Position numbers and translations under genes: made by a program
Notes under the pieces: generated by a model
Told to the model about the DNA's origin: nothing
What the model saw: the letters and a program-made list of their open reading frames with translations, nothing else
The model's database searches: none
Part shown: piece by piece, positions 31,632-41,517 of the stretch
How positions within the stretch are numbered: position 1 is the first letter of the stretch
Layout of the letters: each line of letters opens with the position of its first letter
Virus record (IMG/VR): IMGVR_UViG_3300013021_000003
Location: 1-45,691 of that record
Source of the DNA: a virus
Length of the DNA stretch: 45,691 nt
Strand: one strand, 5' to 3'

Positions 31632-32534
31632 TTATCTAGTTTCTAAGATTAAAGAGTTTTCTTCTTCAATTAGACCAGAACCCATAATTGAGTACCAAGC
31701 TAACTTATGCTCTCTACCAAAGTCGACTACTCCACCATCACGCATTTCTACTGGAAGACCTTCTGCCCAACCATAAGCATTATCACCAAAGATAACTGCT
31801 TGGTAAGCTGTAAACTCGTCTCCACTACTTGCTGTACCATCTGGGTCAACTTCAACTGTAGGCTGTTGTGTAGTAGTGATAAATCTTACATCATCAATTC
31901 TACCAAACTCACCTGCATAAATTCCACCATAGTCATTTGCATTTTTGAAGTCAGCGTCATCTTTCAAGCCTCTTTCTTGGTGTGGGTGGATAAAGCAAAT
32001 ATAAGCGTCTCCATTATATTTTCTTACATTCTTAGTTTTCAGAACTTCTACAGCGTCTTTCAGAAGTGCAGAGTCAAAAACATCTCCTTCTGCTAAGTTT
32101 TCTCTAGCTGTCTGTCCACCTGCGTATGTTACGCTAGTCTGATTATTAATGATTGAGTCTCTCAACATTTCGTCAAGAACTTCTGCATAGTCCATACCTA
32201 AAAGTCTTGCACCACTTGATAGAATATCGTCAAAAGAACTCTGTAACAGTTTTTCAGAAACACTAATTGCATTACCATACTCGGTAACAGTTAATTGTGT
32301 CTGATTTGCTGTCAACCCTTGAGTTGTCATTGGGTTTCCTTCGTCTAACTGACCTCCCTTATTCAATGAATTGTACTTAGTGAAGTTTACAGTTAGACCC
32401 GGCTCTGTTCCTAACTCTGTTTTCTTAGTTGCAAACTGTGCATAGCGTAAAATTGGCTGTGCATAAAACTGAATATCTTTCGAATAGACTTCCAATACTG
32501 CCTCGCTTAAACTTGTAGTGTTTGTATCTGGCAT
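31632..32534 (-). CDS. Major capsid protein, N4-gp56/HK97-fold type
   Basis: The main shell protein (300 aa). The N-terminus LSEAVLEVYSKDIQFYAQPILRYAQFATKKTELG, the G-rich loop (KGGQLDEGNPMTTQGLTANQTQLTVTEYGNAISVSEKLLQ), the central MLRDSIIN and YICFIHPHQERGLKDDADFKNAND, and the C-terminal YSIMGSGLIEEENSLILETR fit N4-gp56-family capsid proteins. It lies directly downstream of the scaffold gene with a good ribosome site before ATG 32534. Confidence 0.88.
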   Translation of the reverse strand: MPDTNTTSLSEAVLEVYSKDIQFYAQPILRYAQFATKKTELGTEPGLTVNFTKYNSLNKGGQLDEGNPMTTQGLTANQTQLTVTEYGNAISVSEKLLQSSFDDILSSGARLLGMDYAEVLDEMLRDSIINNQTSVTYAGGQTARENLAEGDVFDSALLKDAVEVLKTKNVRKYNGDAYICFIHPHQERGLKDDADFKNANDYGGIYAGEFGRIDDVRFITTTQQPTVEVDPDGTASSGDEFTAYQAVIFGDNAYGWAEGLPVEMRDGGVVDFGREHKLAWYSIMGSGLIEEENSLILETR

Positions 32535-32562: not shown

Positions 32563-33339
32563 TTACTTAATTCCCATTCTTCTTTTAATTTCGTCTCGTC
32601 TTTCCTTCCATTCCTCAACTGACATATTATCAATATCACTAATGTTTAACTCTGACTCTCCTCCAGTATCCATTTCTGGGTTTGTCGGATTAGGCAATTC
32701 TGCCTCTTCTTTCTCTTTCTTCTTTCTTTCCTTCTCTTCTTTTTCTTTTAACTCTTTTTCCTTCTGTTCTTTAGTACTAACTTCCTCAACAATCTTGTCA
32801 TATTCTTCTACAGCTTTAGTAATAGATTTATCTATCTCTTCCTTACTATCACCTCCAACAATTGACTCGATAAGTCCTTTGCCTTCTTCTTTAAGTTCTC
32901 TAATCTTTCTTTCCTTGTATGCCTCAAGTCCTAATGTCTTGTTTTCTTCCTTCATACTGTTCACATCTTCTTTTAAGTCATCTAGTATAGTCTTGTACTT
33001 ATCTTTGATTGCTGATTTCTCCTCCTCTTCTTTTTCCAACGAAGTTTCCAGTTTCTTAATCTTAGTCTCCATGTCCTTAATCTCTTTTTCCTTTGCCTTA
33101 ACCTTATCCTCTTTCCTTTTAATCTCGTCATAGAGTTTGTCTTTCTCTTGCTTTCTTGCTTTCTCTACAAACTGTTTAACTTCAGGTTTCTGCAATAAGT
33201 CCTGTAAAGACAGGTCTTCAAGATTAACCTTAGTCTCCTCTTCCTTAGTACTCTCACTTTGTTTTACTACAACTGTCTCTTCCTCGTTAGTTTCTTGGTC
33301 TACTTCTGTTTCATTAGTCTTTTCTTCTGGCTTAGCCAT
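32563..33339 (-). CDS. Capsid scaffold protein
   Basis: A very charged, nearly all-helical 258-aa protein: a long coiled coil (residues about 60-210, Glu and Lys rich), an acidic N-terminus and a C-terminal helix (VEEWKERRDEIKRRMGIK) that would bind the shell protein. This is the typical scaffold layout, immediately upstream of the capsid gene. A possible client for the Prp-like protease two genes upstream. Confidence 0.85.
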   Translation of the reverse strand: MAKPEEKTNETEVDQETNEEETVVVKQSESTKEEETKVNLEDLSLQDLLQKPEVKQFVEKARKQEKDKLYDEIKRKEDKVKAKEKEIKDMETKIKKLETSLEKEEEEKSAIKDKYKTILDDLKEDVNSMKEENKTLGLEAYKERKIRELKEEGKGLIESIVGGDSKEEIDKSITKAVEEYDKIVEEVSTKEQKEKELKEKEEKERKKKEKEEAELPNPTNPEMDTGGESELNISDIDNMSVEEWKERRDEIKRRMGIK

Positions 33340-34003: not shown

Positions 34004-37000
34004 TTATTCACTCCCTTGTGTTACATCTCTTAAATACTGAGCAACACCTAGTTCGTCAATCTGCTCTGCCTTCTTGGGTGCGTCACTTATTTTCTGAGTC
34101 CTGTTTAACTCATTTAGTATTCTATCATCATAAGAAGAACGAGTCTTTAACTTAATTGCATTTACCTCACCTGTTTTGAGTCCACGCCAGTTTCTTGCCT
34201 CTCTCTGTTCCAGCTTATAATATTTATCGGGTAAATCCCAATGTATCGTTACATCTGACTCCTGTAAGTTCAATCCTGTTGCCCCTGCGTCTGATAAGAC
34301 CAACACATCTTTATCGGGGTTTGTCTTAAACTCCTGTATAACTTTCATTCTTTCTGAGTCAGTTAAATCTTTAGCTGTATAGATTAAAGCCCTGTCTTCG
34401 TCTAAATGATTTTTCAATGTTTCTACACCATCTAGGTCTGAACTAAAAATCAGTTTCTTTTCATCTTTATACTTATTATCTATTAAATCATCTAAGACCT
34501 TGAGTTTACCATTCTTTTCTCCACCAGCATTTATGACCTTATTGAGTTTATCTTTCTCTATAGCTCTTACTTTACTTACTGCCATTCTACCTCTATCTAT
34601 TCTATCCTGTGCCTCTTTCTCAATGATTTTTAGCTGTTGTTCCTGCCACTCAGATAAACCTGCACGAATAGTCCTTTGAATTTTTCTTGCCTCTACTGGA
34701 CTATCTCTTGTAATTGATAAAGGTTTCAATAAATCTCTTAAGTCTCTTAATACTGACTCTTCATATAAACTTGATGCCTTAGTTATATCTTTAAATTTGC
34801 CCTCCAGCTTATATTTCGGGGGCAGTCCATCTGGGTGTAACCAATCGAGTGTATCGTACATATCCATTACGCTATCTCTTACTGCTGTACCTGTTAGTCC
34901 TACCCTATATTCAGTATCCAGCTTTTTCAAGTTCCTTGCTGTCTTTCCTGTGATTTGATGTATCTCATCAACTACTGTCATATCCCAACCAAAGTCTGCT
35001 AAAGAGTTTGCCTTTGTGTAAGCTATATCTTTTAAATCTCCATCATTCTTAAGCATTTTATGGCTTATTACATGAACGAAGGAGTCGTCATTCTCATACA
35101 TTTCTATCCTCTTTTTCTTGCTAAGGTATGCCTTGTAGTCTCTAACTGTGATAGCGTCATCAGTAAAATCATCAATCTCTTTTGAGAACTGTCTTACTAA
35201 GTCCTCTGGAACTACAACTAAAACTTTGTTAGCACCTGCGTCATAAGCCTCTGATATTGAGCCTATTGCAGTATGCGTTTTTCCAGCACCGGGCTTGTAA
35301 TGTATTAACCCTGTCTTGTTTTCTCTTATAAATCTTATACCTGTCTGCTGGTCTGCCCTTAATTTAAAGTCATATTCCTTACCATTCTTAGTATAGGTAC
35401 TTTTCATGTGGTTAGGTAGCCAACCATCTTTATTTTCTTTTCCCTGTCTTATTCTATTGAGTTTCTCTGTTATAGATAACTGACCTTTATTAGAAGACCA
35501 CTTATCTGTTATCTCTTCTATTCCATCATACCCTACTATAATGTTCTTTCTTCCATCTAAGGTATCTACAGTATAGTTTTTTGCTGATACGCCCAGTTTA
35601 TCTACCACAGTATTTGTTGCCCTTCTTGCCTGTGGTATGTTTACATATTTTAAGCTGTCTGGGTCATCAACTACTCCCTTTAATTCCCTTAATAATCTTT
35701 CGTGTGCCTCTGCATATCCAACTGCGTCACCTAGTTCTGTTCTTGCTTGTTGTACTGCTTTTCTTCTCATTCCCATTACTGCTCTTCTTGTAGCCGAGCC
35801 ATCTTTTACAGCTTTCACTTTCTCATAAGCACTTTCCATGTGTTTCTTAGCCTCTGCTAATGACTTCTTCATTTCAATACTCATTCTATCGTCTATATAT
35901 TTACTTAGACCACTAACAACATCTTCCATATCTAAGTTCGGGTTTTTCTTTACATCTAAAGCCATTATTTTAATTGCTTGGTCTACTCCTATATCTTCGA
36001 TAATGTCAGCGTCTAATGAATAACCTAAAATATTCTTCGATACTTCTTGGTATCCTCTTATTCCACCTTCTTCAATGTATTTCTCTAAAGCCCTCTTCTT
36101 AGTTCCTTGATGTAAGTTTAGAACTCCTTCCATTCCTACATCAGTTTCATCTCTTATTTTCTCTAAGGCTTTCAGTTTCTCCTGTTTTGACCGTCTAGTA
36201 TAATCCCATGGCTTGTTGTATCGGTAATTCCTTTCTCTCCACTCACGAATGTACTTCTGGCTTTCTGGACTTACCATGTTATAGTCATTGTAGTCTGCCA
36301 TGTTCTGACCTAGACCACTTTCAATATTCTCTATGGCTACTGTATTCATACCATAGTTATCGGTCAATACAATATCTAACATACACTGACAATATGGGTG
36401 AGGATATTCTGGAACTTCTGCTGATGTATATAACCCTTCCATTTCCACATCTTGTATTTCATATTTACTTATATATCTTTGTGCCTCGACTCCTACTGTA
36501 GTTGCGTGTTCATCACAAATGTCATAAATCTTATGACTAGGGTTTAAATTCCATGACATCAACAAGTCTTTCATTTCTGCCAGTTTCTTTGTTGCCTCTT
36601 GGTTTGCTCTTTCCTGTTCTGAAATCAGAAGTCTTTCATTATACTTGAAAGAACTCCCTCCCCTAAGACTTCTCCCAGTTTCTCTACTGTCAGTCATGTA
36701 TTTATATGTGTCTTTTTTAGCGTTTTTCAGACCTTTTTCAGTAGTTGCTCTGGGTATCTCTTTCCTATACCTTTGGTTTATCTTCTTACGAGAAACCTCT
36801 AATCTCTTATCCATTGTTGCACCTTTGAACTCACCTTGTAGTTCTTTCATAGCACCATTTTTTACTTTCTCCATTTCAGTCCTGCTAAAAGGTTGGAGTC
36901 CATGTTCTTTCATTCTCTGATTTTGTCGATATAACTCTTGTTGTAGTCGCTGTTCCTTTGTTTTATTGACTACCTGCTTTACTTCGTCTTCCATATTTAG

Positions 37001-37150
37001 TGAACGATAGTAGTGCCTGTTATACCTTGATTTTACATCAGAGTCGTCTAGGACTTTATCAAAGGTTGCTTTATTGATATTCTCTGCGTACTCTGTATGA
37101 ATGTCGTGTAACTTTTTTCTGTCTATTAACTGTTTCTTATCATAAGGCAA
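34004..37150 (-). CDS. MuF head-morphogenesis domain fused to SNF2-type helicase (1048 aa)
   Basis: A giant polyvalent-type protein. Residues 1-265 are the minor-head (MuF/SPP1 gp7-like) region, with the typical ending YPHPYCQC (249-256). Residues 280-590 are a long helical linker rich in Lys and Glu. Residues 590-1048 form a superfamily 2, SNF2-like helicase: Walker A KPGAGKT (619-625), DEIH box (728-731), motif III GLTGTA (751-756), VLSDAGATGLNLQ (951-963) and EQREARNWR (981-989) for motif VI. All ATPase motifs are intact. MuF proteins are packed in the head, so the helicase may travel with the DNA and act on host or incoming DNA. Start TTG 37150 after TAGGTGATTAAAG. The gene lies directly after the portal. 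Confidence 0.85.
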   Translation of the reverse strand: MPYDKKQLIDRKKLHDIHTEYAENINKATFDKVLDDSDVKSRYNRHYYRSLNMEDEVKQVVNKTKEQRLQQELYRQNQRMKEHGLQPFSRTEMEKVKNGAMKELQGEFKGATMDKRLEVSRKKINQRYRKEIPRATTEKGLKNAKKDTYKYMTDSRETGRSLRGGSSFKYNERLLISEQERANQEATKKLAEMKDLLMSWNLNPSHKIYDICDEHATTVGVEAQRYISKYEIQDVEMEGLYTSAEVPEYPHPYCQCMLDIVLTDNYGMNTVAIENIESGLGQNMADYNDYNMVSPESQKYIREWRERNYRYNKPWDYTRRSKQEKLKALEKIRDETDVGMEGVLNLHQGTKKRALEKYIEEGGIRGYQEVSKNILGYSLDADIIEDIGVDQAIKIMALDVKKNPNLDMEDVVSGLSKYIDDRMSIEMKKSLAEAKKHMESAYEKVKAVKDGSATRRAVMGMRRKAVQQARTELGDAVGYAEAHERLLRELKGVVDDPDSLKYVNIPQARRATNTVVDKLGVSAKNYTVDTLDGRKNIIVGYDGIEEITDKWSSNKGQLSITEKLNRIRQGKENKDGWLPNHMKSTYTKNGKEYDFKLRADQQTGIRFIRENKTGLIHYKPGAGKTHTAIGSISEAYDAGANKVLVVVPEDLVRQFSKEIDDFTDDAITVRDYKAYLSKKKRIEMYENDDSFVHVISHKMLKNDGDLKDIAYTKANSLADFGWDMTVVDEIHQITGKTARNLKKLDTEYRVGLTGTAVRDSVMDMYDTLDWLHPDGLPPKYKLEGKFKDITKASSLYEESVLRDLRDLLKPLSITRDSPVEARKIQRTIRAGLSEWQEQQLKIIEKEAQDRIDRGRMAVSKVRAIEKDKLNKVINAGGEKNGKLKVLDDLIDNKYKDEKKLIFSSDLDGVETLKNHLDEDRALIYTAKDLTDSERMKVIQEFKTNPDKDVLVLSDAGATGLNLQESDVTIHWDLPDKYYKLEQREARNWRGLKTGEVNAIKLKTRSSYDDRILNELNRTQKISDAPKKAEQIDELGVAQYLRDVTQGSE

Positions 37151-37160
37151 CTTTAATCAC

Positions 37161-38642
37161 CTACTCTTCTAAGCCTTGCTGTTCATTTTCTACTTTTCCA
37201 TCTAGGTCAGATTTTATACCACCAATATCAATATTCTCAGCACTATTTTCTGAGCCTATATCGAACATGTCTCTTTGAGCCTGTTTCTGATACTCTCTAA
37301 TTTCGTCTAGTTTCTCTTGGATATTTCCTTCATAACCTAATTCCTCTAAAGCACCTTTGGGAGTTTCAATTCCCATATTTAACTTTTGTGCGATTTTCTG
37401 TAATTCTACTAATTCATCTTTTGGTAGTGGGTCTGGAAACTTAATTGTAAAATCAAATAGTTTTCTTATCTCTTTTGGGTCATCACCATCTATAACCTCG
37501 TCTAAAATATCTTGCTGTTCTTCATCACCCTTAACCTTTAAATAGAGTAATATCAATTTGCAAACTTCCTTTATCCCTCTTCCATAAGTTCTGCGTTTAA
37601 TCCATGTCTTTTCTAAAAGAGGTGCATATTTTACTCTTAAGGCTACTCCAGTTGTGTTTGAGATATTTGACTCTCCTCCCAAACTATCCTCTGGTGTGTT
37701 GGATAACTCAGATATTGCTGTTTTGATTTTCCCAATATATTTATTTGAGGCACCTAAATCTGACTCTAGTTTCAAATTATATACATCTGCGTCAGCAGGT
37801 AATCCACCCCAAACCTTTCTAGCACCTTTCTCAAGATTTTTAGACTTTGCACCTTTTATAATCGTAATAGGTGCGGCATGATAGTTTATAATATCACTAA
37901 CATCTGTAACTTTTTCGTTGAGTTCCTTCTGTAAATCTGTAACTGCTTTTAAATCACTCTGCCCATAACTCTTACCTGCCTTAGGTAAATTTCTAATATG
38001 GACTACATTTATCTTTCCTACAACATTATCTATTTCTTTCTGTAGTTTATCGTCTACATAGTATTTGATTTTATCCCTAGTTATCTCTTCCTTATATAAC
38101 TTGGGTTGTATCTTCCCACTTTTCTCGTCTTTCTGTAGAATTACATAAATTATCTTACAGGAAACCATTTCGTTCTTATTATGGGTAGCATATTCTGGGA
38201 ATACCATACTACTTGATAGCACATCAATTCTAACTTTCCCATCTGGGTATTCTAAATCGTGTGGTATCCCTTGAGAATTTTTCTTACCGTTCTCCCAAGA
38301 AACACGAATAAATGAGTCGCCTGTTACTGCACCCATTTGTCCTATCTCTATTCCAGTAATATCCTTATTGTTATACTGCCACACTTCTTCTACCATTTCT
38401 TTAATCTCAGTATAATCTTTGTGTGGCTTTATTCTAAAACCTTTGCCAAATAGAAAACTTACTGACTTATCTACAATAGCCTTACTGTAGTTAAAAGTTA
38501 TAAGTCTTTCTACGGCTCTATCTCTATCCCAATGGTCTCCATCATAAAATTTCCACATCTTAGAGTATTCTTGTATTCTCTTTGAGTGTTTATCGCTTAG
38601 TTCGTCTGGTCTGGTGACTAGAGGATTGGTAACACTATTCAT
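37161..38642 (-). CDS. Portal protein, SPP1 gp6-like
   Basis: The dodecameric DNA gate at one capsid vertex (493 aa). Typical features are the N-terminal YYDGDH-like segment (KMWKFYDGDHWD), FNYSKAIVDKSVSFLFGKGFRI (about residues 48-70), the central VVHIRNLPKAGKSYGQSDLKAVTDLQKELNEKVTDVSDIINYHAAPI and the C-terminal SNTPEDSLGGESNISNTTGVALRVKYAPLLEK. It overlaps the upstream gene by eight bases and is followed by the MuF fusion, the standard portal-MuF order. Confidence 0.92.
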   Translation of the reverse strand: MNSVTNPLVTRPDELSDKHSKRIQEYSKMWKFYDGDHWDRDRAVERLITFNYSKAIVDKSVSFLFGKGFRIKPHKDYTEIKEMVEEVWQYNNKDITGIEIGQMGAVTGDSFIRVSWENGKKNSQGIPHDLEYPDGKVRIDVLSSSMVFPEYATHNKNEMVSCKIIYVILQKDEKSGKIQPKLYKEEITRDKIKYYVDDKLQKEIDNVVGKINVVHIRNLPKAGKSYGQSDLKAVTDLQKELNEKVTDVSDIINYHAAPITIIKGAKSKNLEKGARKVWGGLPADADVYNLKLESDLGASNKYIGKIKTAISELSNTPEDSLGGESNISNTTGVALRVKYAPLLEKTWIKRRTYGRGIKEVCKLILLYLKVKGDEEQQDILDEVIDGDDPKEIRKLFDFTIKFPDPLPKDELVELQKIAQKLNMGIETPKGALEELGYEGNIQEKLDEIREYQKQAQRDMFDIGSENSAENIDIGGIKSDLDGKVENEQQGLEE

Positions 38643-38922: not shown

Positions 38923-38942
38923 AATCGTCACCTGTAATTAAT

Positions 38943-39119
38943 TTATGCGTTCTTACCAGCATTAAAAGCCTCCTTAGTTCCAGCAGGTATGTTCTTAGCT
39001 TTGTCTCTACCTTTATTATCTCTAGGTACAGTTAAGCCTTGCTCATCACCCTGTCTTGAACTAGTTAGTCTAGTCTGATGAATGTTACTCCTATTTTTCT
39101 TCTTATTAAATACAGGCAT
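38943..39119 (-). CDS. First gene of head operon, 58-aa basic protein
   Basis: Runs from ATG 39119, with AAGGAGGGAGAAT upstream, to TAA 38943. The product is basic and polar, with an N-terminal NKKKNRSN and a C-terminal TKEAFNAGKNA, and probably has little fixed structure. It is the first gene behind the head-operon promoter and the long structured leader. No family recognised. Confidence 0.7.
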   Translation of the reverse strand: MPVFNKKKNRSNIHQTRLTSSRQGDEQGLTVPRDNKGRDKAKNIPAGTKEAFNAGKNA

Positions 39120-39156
39120 ATTCTCCCTCCTTCCTTTCTACTTCTAAACATAGAAA

Positions 39157-39251
39157 TAGGCAAGTGATACAGAACTTAAAATGCGTAAGAGAAAATCCCT
39201 CTCGGGCAAAAACTCTTATTTACCTTATTACAGTTCTATATCACTTGCCTA
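39157..39251 (-). ncRNA. Long structured leader element upstream of the head operon
   Basis: Two 20-base arms (39157-39176 and 39232-39251) pair on the minus strand with a single G-U pair. Inside, TAAGAG pairs with CTCTTA, and at the tip CCC GAGA GGG (39197-39206) makes a GNRA-capped hairpin. It lies in the transcript between the promoter at 39329 and the first gene at 39119, and no U-run follows the outer stem, so it is not an intrinsic terminator. It may be a regulatory leader, an RNase processing site or an RNA of independent function. I do not recognise a known riboswitch class. Confidence 0.65.
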
Positions 39252-39300
39252 ATTAAAAAAATCTACTGGGGATATTTGACCCTTTCCACTCTCCACTTAT

Positions 39301-39329
39301 ATTATATAATAATGTTTTTCCATAGTCAA
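39301..39329 (-). promoter_or_regulatory. Head-operon promoter
   Basis: TTGACT (39324-39329), a 17-bp spacer and TATAAT (39301-39306) on the minus strand, near the vegetative consensus. Transcription should start near 39294, giving a leader of about 175 nt that contains the long hairpin. Confidence 0.75.
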
Positions 39330-39570
39330 ATGTTTTTTCCGAATTTCCCCAATTTTTCAACTCCTTCCTTACTTTTTCTAAAACTCCATAATTTTAACCT
39401 AAAATGGTCTGCTTTTAGTTCTCTCTTTTAGCTTTTGAAAATCGAGGGCTTTGCCTAGTCTTTCTTTTTTATTTTTTTCTTTCTTTTGTGTGTTAAACAT
39501 CTTAAGTAGGTAAAAGTAGAACACTCGTTTGTTAATTAATTAAATTATATAGCATAAGAGAGCTAACTTG

Positions 39571-39887
39571 ATTTAATCGGAAAAATCTTAATTCTATTTT
39601 GCCTTATATATAGAGGTTGAGGTGGTTAAGTATCTTAACTAGCTTGATTTTTCGACTCAAGGTCAGACTGGGTAGCATTATAGAGTATTACAGAGTTAAT
39701 CTTATTTAATCGGAAAAATCTTAATTCTATTTTGCCTTATATATAGAGGTTGCAAAAAGCTGGTTAAGTATCTTAACTAGCTGGGTTTTTCGGGTCTGAG
39801 CATATTGGAGTAAAATAGAGCATTATAGAGCATATCTAATTTAATCGGAAAAATCTTAATTCTATTTTGCCTTATATATAGAGGTTG
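39571..39887 (-). repeat. Three copies of a 49-bp direct repeat, period about 134 bp
   Basis: Identical 49-bp copies lie at 39571-39619, 39704-39752 and 39839-39887. The spacers are related but diverged: two of them carry a GTTAAG-TAT-CTTAAC palindrome right beside the repeat. On the minus strand the copies end in TTTTTCCGATTAAAT, and a TATAAT, TGTAAT or TCTTAT lies 17 bp beyond TTCCGA, so each unit could be a promoter with an activator site followed by a short transcript. Origin iterons or a packaging site are alternatives. No gene is present. Confidence 0.85.
39758..39782. terminator. Bidirectional terminator-like hairpin inside the repeat array
   Basis: AGCTGGTTAAG and CTTAACTAGCT make an 11-bp stem (one G-U) around TAT. 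It is flanked by five A on one side and GGGTTTTT on the other, so either strand gives a hairpin followed by a U-run. The equivalent hairpin in the neighbouring unit (39624-39640) lacks the flanking A/T runs. Confidence 0.55.
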
Positions 39888-40156
39888 ACTCAGGGTCAGT
39901 CTTGTACTTGAACTCTGGTTTTAGGGTCTTATATGTCTCCTCTGGAGGCAAGTCGGCGAAACCTTGTTTTAGAAAAATGGCTAAAAGTGGTCTGATTTTT
40001 AACGATTTCGATATTTTTTATATAGAATTGGGCTAAAAGGATAATGCTCATTGTATAAATTGTACTGTGGCTTTAGTACTGGGTGCATACTTTAGTTCAT
40101 ATAAATTGAAGGTAGTTTTAATTGTTAACTAAAATGACTAAAAGGAACTGGGGCTG
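39888..40156. other. Gene-free AT-rich spacer
   Basis: Between the repeat array and the possible terminator I see no reading frame with a ribosome site, no tRNA and no clear promoter. A short CTCC-TCT-GGAG palindrome near 39940 is the only structure noticed. Confidence 0.5.
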
Positions 40157-40196
40157 AAAAGGGGCAGAGTAAGAGTTAGTCTTTTCTCTCTTCCCC
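40157..40196 (-). terminator. Possible terminator of the packaging operon
   Basis: On the minus strand GGGG-AAGAG pairs with CTCTT and, across a 6-nt bulge, CCCC, followed by TTTT. It lies 48 bp after the Cys-rich gene at the end of the terminase-PhoH group. The stem is interrupted, so the call is tentative. Confidence 0.35.
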
Positions 40197-40243
40197 CGCC
40201 CACTTAAATAATGGTCTTATTCTGTTATCCTCTTAACCTATCT

Positions 40244-40390
40244 CTATATCTTATTGTCTTTTCTGTATTTGCAGTTTTCTCCTGCTTTCTTTTCTCTAAA
40301 TTTTCCTATTTGGCAAACCTTAAAGCAGTCTGTCATAGTATAAAACTCACCATATTCACAGTTTCTACACTCCCTACTTAGGTCTTTAAT
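40244..40390 (-). CDS. Cys-rich mini-protein (48 aa) with apparent ATT start
   Basis: The frame is open from within the end of the PhoH gene to TAG 40244. It has no ATG, GTG or TTG near its beginning, but ATT at 40390 lies eight bases after AGGAGG, a perfect ribosome site that overlaps the PhoH stop. Five cysteines (C8, C11, C22, C26, C40 counted from that ATT) suggest a zinc-binding or disulphide-linked fold. An internal ATG (TMTDC) would lose the first CxxC. Translation from ATT is rare but known, for example in bacterial infC. The function is unknown. Confidence 0.5.
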   Translation of the reverse strand: MKDLSRECRNCEYGEFYTMTDCFKVCQIGKFREKKAGENCKYRKDNKI

Positions 40391-40395
40391 TGTTC

Positions 40396-41517
40396 TTACC
40401 TCCTTAATAACTCTCCTAATTCCTTAGCTGACTCACTTCTTTCTACCTTATCTAGTTCAACACAGGCTGTTAATCTACTTCCTTTTAGTCTGTTGGCTAC
40501 AAAACTCAGTCCATTATAAGCAGGTGATAGTCCTCTTTTATCTACCTGTCTTACATCACCAGTTAAAACTAGCTTACTTCCTTTACCCATTCTTTCTACC
40601 AGCATTTTCATTTTATCTGGCTCAATGTCCTGTGCCTCGTCTATTATAAAGAAGGTATCTTTTATATCTCTACCTTTAGCAGTCTGTAGTGGCTGTATTT
40701 CTGGTACTGTTTTCATTTGGAAACTTTTCATATTATCCTCGAATGGCTTAATAAACGGGTCTTGTTTCTCTTTTATCCCACCTGGTAGTATTCCTAACTC
40801 TTCTCCAATTTGAACATTAGGTCTTGATAGTAGAACATTTGAGTACCTCTCCTGTTGTGCTAACTGAATTGCAGATTTTATTGCCAAAGCTGTCTTTCCT
40901 GTACCTGCAACTCCCCATAATATTACTGTAGTAATGTCTGGATTGAAGATTGCGTCATAAGCCATGACCTGTCTTCTGTTAAGTTCATCAATCCCTTGTA
41001 TTTTATGCTTGTTAGACCAGCTAACTTTATGAAGTGTTCCACTCCTATATCTTGCTAGTATAGAGTCGCAGTCTACATATTGGTTTTCGTGTAGTTTCTC
41101 TTTACTCCAGCCTACTGAGTTATGTTCCTGTAGCTGATTATATTCATCTGGAGTTAGTTTTCTTTTAACTACTCCAGTATAAGTGTTAATGTCTGGTTGG
41201 TAATGCTCACACTTAATATTGTTTTCTTTGCCTTCAAGGTATACTCTGTAATCTCCAGTAATCAACTCTAATTCGTGTATCCTACATATATCCAATAGGG
41301 CTTTATCTACAACTTGTTCTGACAATTTGAAGTTTTGGCATTTGATATTATACTTCTTTATTGCTCTTAAAACTGTTCTAGCATTGTATCCAACATTCTT
41401 ACTGTTCTTTAGACCATCTAACTCATCTAAAATAATGAATGGAACTATAATCTCGTCTTTATTTTTCTGAATTAGGCTCGGATTGTCAATTAAACAGTTA
41501 GTATCATAAATTTTCAA
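40396..41517 (-). CDS. PIN-domain / PhoH-like ATPase
   Basis: A 373-aa two-domain protein. Residues 1-110 are a PIN ribonuclease domain: D5 (YDTN), D31/E32 (VPFIILDELDGLK) and D89 (ELITGDYRV) are candidate metal ligands. Residues 180-373 are a PhoH-like ATPase: GVAGTGKT (202-209), LLSRPNVQIGEELGILPG, FFIIDEAQD (289-297) and LVLTGDVRQVD. Together they suggest a nuclease coupled to nucleic-acid translocation. TTG 41517 is supported by AGGAGGCTATTTAA. Phage PhoH proteins are common but their role is unclear; here it sits in the packaging operon. Confidence 0.88.
   Translation of the reverse strand: MKIYDTNCLIDNPSLIQKNKDEIIVPFIILDELDGLKNSKNVGYNARTVLRAIKKYNIKCQNFKLSEQVVDKALLDICRIHELELITGDYRVYLEGKENNIKCEHYQPDINTYTGVVKRKLTPDEYNQLQEHNSVGWSKEKLHENQYVDCDSILARYRSGTLHKVSWSNKHKIQGIDELNRRQVMAYDAIFNPDITTVILWGVAGTGKTALAIKSAIQLAQQERYSNVLLSRPNVQIGEELGILPGGIKEKQDPFIKPFEDNMKSFQMKTVPEIQPLQTAKGRDIKDTFFIIDEAQDIEPDKMKMLVERMGKGSKLVLTGDVRQVDKRGLSPAYNGLSFVANRLKGSRLTACVELDKVERSESAKELGELLRR

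Follow-up and report, generated by a model that had tools for sequence, protein, structure and literature searches.

MuF minor head proteins, such as gpF/gp30 of phage Mu and gp7 of SPP1 (PF04233), are encoded after the portal and carry a characteristic signature. SPP1 gp7 enters the procapsid by portal targeting and is dispensable for assembly, and fusions of MuF to toxins are known (PMC6316719). SPP1 without gp7 keeps only ~25% infectious virions (PMC6316719), and MuF therefore supports the start of infection. The Dar proteins of P1 are co-ejected (PMC12810830), and the virions of JC1 contain a DarB-like protein (PMC9144972). DarB and the DarB-like polyvalent proteins have an SNF2-type ATPase and are associated with the head; P1 DarB additionally combines a DNA adenine methylase-LPD36 module with an N-terminal sequence for capsid targeting. 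According to the available sections of a survey of polyvalent proteins, SNF2 enzymes translocate along duplex DNA, MuF is fused to other enzymes and SNF2 occurs with a methylase, and no direct MuF-SNF2 fusion was found in those sections (PMC5512222). Another group of phage SNF2 proteins, the phrog_62 helicases (ORF61 of Mecenats66 and those of Bordetella phage PHB04 and the Thermus phages Cumys, phiMa and Lalka), run to roughly 1300-2000 aa as separate proteins, encoded among virion genes and having no MuF part.

The protein described here resembles MuF minor head proteins in its position after the portal and in its MuF signature, and resembles MuF-toxin fusions in having an N-terminal MuF with a C-terminal cargo. 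The cargo, however, is an SNF2 motor with an accessory domain and not a toxin domain.

Results

The fusion gene and its locus

The window, by which we mean the whole stretch of DNA analysed, is a viral contig of IMG/VR, 45,691 bases long. The fusion gene (34004..37150, minus strand) codes for 1048 aa with a predicted mass of 121 kDa, and its TTG start at 37150 lies right at the end of the gene for an SPP1-type portal protein (37161..38642, minus strand; PF05133, E=1.2e-42), the presumed docking partner. A ribosome-binding-site-like AGGTGA (37157..37162, minus strand) stands 6 nt upstream of the TTG and overlaps the stop codon of the portal gene, and near the domain junction of the ORF no in-frame start with a convincing ribosome-binding site was seen. 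The late genes on the minus strand are those for terminase, PhoH, portal, the fusion protein, two small proteins, a probable scaffold, capsid, connector, sheath, tube, tape measure and baseplate, and they mark this uncultured phage as contractile-tailed. From the portal through the fusion gene, the two small genes and the probable scaffold to the capsid gene the layout is that of a typical late operon. The major capsid protein (31632..32534, minus strand) matches phrog_1357 with E=6e-53. The gene upstream of it (32563..33339, minus strand) is called a probable scaffold from its position; it has no family match in Pfam or PHROG searches, and a similar acidic ORF of 245 aa stands at the same place in the nearest relative, contig IMGVR 3300002163_000183 (L022 hereafter). 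No prohead protease was recognised in the head module by Pfam or PHROG. A 1048-aa MuF-SNF2 protein encoded after the portal, within the head module, had been claimed in an initial annotation of this DNA, and both the ORF and its place between the portal and the probable scaffold and capsid genes bear this out.

The portal operon is preceded by 1.4 kb (38932-40395) without any ORF of at least 90 aa. It contains a 135-bp direct repeat in 2.6 copies (39544-39888), with an internal inverted repeat, GTTAAG..CTTAAC, and the region has no match to Rfam or tRNA. Between the terminase and portal genes (40396-41517) lies the gene for the PhoH-type ATPase, which has an N-terminal PIN domain.

The N-terminal MuF domain

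Residues 1-295 (36266..37150, minus strand) are a MuF-type minor head, or portal-docking, domain, on which profile, motif and fold evidence agree. An HMM of 31 viral MuF-type proteins, built with the window protein left out, gave 66.8 bits for the fusion protein, the best of 1000 shuffled sequences reaching 7.1; the test is not fully independent, because the 31 proteins had been gathered by similarity to the query, but 8 of the 32 aligned members reach PF04233 and the signature residues are common to them. The signature RL..[ST]E ... D.C ... P..HP.C.C is present at residues 173-258 (RLLISEQ...WNLNPSHKIYDICDEHA...VPEYPHPYCQC; 36377..36634, minus strand), and R173, L174, E178, C212, H251, P252 and C256 are invariant in 32 aligned MuF-type proteins. 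Besides the signature and the profile similarity, the domain has the expected position directly after the portal.

Unlike the described MuF minor head proteins, the window protein gives no match to PF04233 itself, and this part of it has no Pfam, PHROG or NCBIfam match of weight (TIGR01641, E=6.5). Since most of its MuF-type relatives miss PF04233 too, the miss measures the sensitivity of that model. Searching 50,697 phage records by tblastn with residues 1-552 returned ten weak matches. These carry a MuF, minor head, head morphogenesis or capsid-maturation annotation or are unnamed relatives of proteins that do; by gene, the matches are either annotated as MuF/minor head or stand behind the portal in the MuF position. 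One of the ten, from Streptococcus phage Javan166, aligns across the PF04233 domain. Viral contigs added many further MuF-type proteins, often with a length of about 300-500 aa. The predicted structure is good in the core only (residues about 171-260, pLDDT 86-97 by block; 69.7 overall). Among viral folds in BFVD it matches MuF-like minor capsid proteins best (Foldseek, E=7.8e-5 for the top one), and a PDB fold search with the same model gave no match.

In the Javan166 MuF protein (L015:3623-5248) the C-terminal part shows weak zinc-peptidase (WLM/M48) matches; it is possibly another MuF-enzyme fusion.

The SNF2 motor

Residues 595-1041 (34028..35368, minus strand) are an SNF2-like SF2 ATPase core and a predicted translocase, as judged from Pfam, the AlphaFold model and PDB fold matches. 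The motifs that the initial annotation had read in the C-terminal part are there, and motif V with them, all on the minus strand: motif I or Walker A, KPGAGKT (residues 619-625; 35276..35296), which is conserved in the family; motif II, DEIH (728-731; 34958..34969), with D728 and E729 invariant; motif III, GLTGTA (751-756; 34883..34900); motif V, SDAGATGLNLQ (953-963; 34262..34294), also conserved; and motif VI, QREARNWR (982-989; 34184..34207), in which Q982, R983, R986 and R989 are invariant. Across 34 aligned proteins G621, G623, K624, D728, E729, D954, Q982, R986 and R989 are invariant or nearly so. Pfam matches to PF00176 (E=1.9e-17), ResIII (1.1e-16) and Helicase_C (1.6e-14) are all above cut-off, so that SF2 motifs I-VI go together with an SNF2 profile above its curated threshold. 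The AlphaFold prediction for residues 325-1048 is a confident one (pLDDT 84, pTM 0.78). Its top PDB fold matches, Mot1, SMARCAD1, CSB, ISW1 and Chd1 (best E=4.2e-22), show an SNF2 fold as against DEAD-box or other SF2 enzymes. Checked separately by HMM and by structure, the two ends of the protein are thus what they had been taken for.

An accessory domain in common with head-module helicases

The division of the protein into two parts did not hold. The MuF and SNF2 ends stand, with the strand corrected to minus, and a third part, residues 346-584 (35399..36115, minus strand), had been overlooked between them. Similarity upstream of the motor was first revealed by alignment with phage helicases among the protein's own matches. 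An HMM of the helicases of Mecenats66, Cumys, PHB04 and phiMa, which belong to phrog_62, gave 58.7 bits for residues 331-592 against 7.5 for the best of 500 shuffles, and direct tblastn matches in many viral contigs begin at residue ~355. The domain is predicted to be mostly helical, followed by a small alpha/beta part.

Both the accessory domain and the SNF2 core are thus homologous to those of the phrog_62 helicases. The latter differ in having an N-terminal region of their own, at least ~345 aa in length and with a WITVHP... start, and a long stretch between the accessory domain and the motor; the window protein has neither. It is therefore termed a relative of phrog_62 and not a plain member, as MuF stands in place of that N-terminal region.

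Most phages that carry a helicase of the phrog_62 kind encode it separately within the head module. Gene order in Morganella phage Mecenats66 is portal, minor head, helicase, protease and capsid, the minor head gene lying just upstream of the helicase gene and overlapping it by 4 bp. The order is methylase protein, helicase and capsid in PHB04, and helicase, protease and capsid in Cumys, while in Lalka27b the helicase gene is in the tail/baseplate module. A scan of IMG/VR gave 80 loci of the phrog_62-type family. Of 32 representatives, less than about 70% identical to one another, 27 are followed downstream by a prohead protease gene, a major capsid gene or both, and in one more a minor head gene lies upstream. 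The family of the fused module is thus head-encoded as a rule, in keeping with the position noted for the window gene.

In PHB04-type phages (L018:1-5551 and L049:3-9450) the head module encodes a tandem pair of large proteins that act on DNA. The first is a giant protein, which in PHB04 is annotated as N-6 DNA methylase, and the second is the phrog_62 helicase. The L049 homologue of the giant protein carries an SNF2 domain.

Occurrence and origin of the fusion

The same full-length architecture recurs in two further contigs of IMG/VR that come from other datasets, with 99.4-99.5% nucleotide identity, and a chimera of a single assembly is thus unlikely. Between the copies the gene shows 13 synonymous and 10 nonsynonymous differences over ~629 and ~2515 sites, giving a nonsynonymous/synonymous ratio of ~0.2 from small numbers. 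The full set of motifs and the low nonsynonymous change between copies support the translocase reading. Among the 299 loci fetched, a sample chosen by similarity and no census (88 distinct MuF ORFs and 137 distinct helicase ORFs over 400 aa), both parts share an ORF only in the phage of the window and in the two copies nearly identical to it, so that the suggested survey for MuF-SNF2 fusions yielded a single phage. Bacterial genomes gave no relative with the full architecture and plasmids gave generic SNF2 matches only. Gut contigs with SNF2 matches carried bacterial-type SNF2 genes, two adjoining metabolic genes. Phages whose portals are closest to that of the window (LuckySocke) lack a MuF-helicase gene beside the portal. 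In Bacteroides phage BS162P1 (L005:6098-8821) a 907-aa gene stands before the portal in the terminase's place and contains an intein that has a LAGLIDADG domain.

The nearest relative, L022, has ~50% identity in the motor and the same downstream gene order, but its N-terminus is lost at the contig end and its Walker A is interrupted by an intein. In this relative (L022:3-2363) the intein-like insert lies exactly inside Walker A (GAGK/T), and the first residue of the insert is G where C or S is usual.

In a tree of SNF2 motors the window protein and L022 are sister to the head-module family (support 97/94), DarB-like motors form the next branch and the phage helicases of the replication type lie outside; the branches that surround the window protein are long (0.9-1.0) and composition is uneven, so the placement is to be read with caution. 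Accidental fusion of a replication-type helicase is rejected on the accessory domain and the tree. Homology and synteny support the view that the fusion protein is a probable merger of neighbours, a MuF gene and a head-module helicase gene of the phrog_62 kind.

Discussion

By analogy with described systems, the fusion protein could be a virion-internal, portal-targeted SNF2 DNA translocase that would be injected with the genome and would clear bound host proteins from it. We give this reading a probability of about one half. As for SPP1 gp7, the MuF part would bind the portal and bring a few copies into the procapsid. The motor would remain in the head during packaging and, like the P1 Dar proteins, would be ejected with the DNA into the cell. 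In the cytoplasm, where ATP is available, it would translocate on the incoming double-stranded DNA and strip host proteins from it, most plausibly restriction or other DNA-surveillance complexes, so that the genome may be protected in the first minutes. The choice of target is a guess with reasons, and P1 DarB would be the functional analogue. It should be noted that SNF2 proteins have many other roles, which counts against this reading. Against injection it may also be said that a 121-kDa protein must exit through the tail, yet P1 carries the 250-kDa DarB and Dar ejection has been reported. The earlier suggestion that the protein is packaged and delivered with the DNA appears plausible from the portal targeting of SPP1 gp7 (PMC6316719) and the DarB-like protein in JC1 virions (PMC9144972).

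The likeness to Dar proteins, also proposed earlier, holds for the SNF2 part and fails for the methylase part. P1 DarB has a DNA adenine methylase, whereas Pfam finds no methylase domain in the window protein, which is thus no DarB-like methylase-SNF2 fusion, and three DNA-methylase families (PF02384, PF01555 and PF00145) are absent from the contig, itself possibly incomplete. With none of these methylases in the window the DarB mechanism could not be copied whole, and a role in displacement or translocation fits better than methylation. MuF would here do the targeting for which P1 DarB has its capsid-targeting sequence.

An unlikely alternative is that the SNF2 motor works in DNA internalisation, pulling or ratcheting the genome with the ATP of the cell from the portal or from just inside, and is an ejection aid, not an anti-defence factor. 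The docking of MuF proteins at the portal, the loss of infectivity of SPP1 without gp7 and the translocation of SNF2 enzymes on duplex DNA would all suit such a motor. To our knowledge, however, no phage uses an SNF2 motor for this purpose, and the separate-gene relatives are not fused to a portal-docking part; portal docking is therefore not general to the family. It is rather improbable that the motor merely helps assembly or packaging, clearing or remodelling DNA in the producing cell with no role after injection. MuF is a part of head assembly and the gene lies among the late genes beside the portal, but the phage encodes a terminase large subunit, which has a motor of its own, and gp7 is dispensable for SPP1 assembly (PMC6316719). 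A slimmer chance attaches to a reading in which an ATP-driven motor, portal-docked in the virion, stays at the entry point, where it would both actively pull the genome in and strip bound proteins from it, independently of any methylase. The least probable reading takes the fusion as a convenience of expression, with the helicase cleaved off or free in replication or transcription and MuF alone packaged: SNF2-like helicases do occur in phage replication modules, but the ORF has no good internal start near the junction, the head module has no recognised prohead protease, and the motor is sister to the head-module family, with which it has the accessory domain in common, unlike the replication type.

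The injected translocase remains the reading that we prefer. The fusion also has a wider meaning: it ties a motor of unclear purpose to a domain with a known task, portal-targeted packaging, and thus suggests, in a testable way, that the wider family of SNF2 helicases encoded beside phage capsid genes, whose sole annotation is 'DNA helicase', are carried in the virion as cargo. A further suggestion is that SNF2 motors, once injected, can work with no methylase as a partner.
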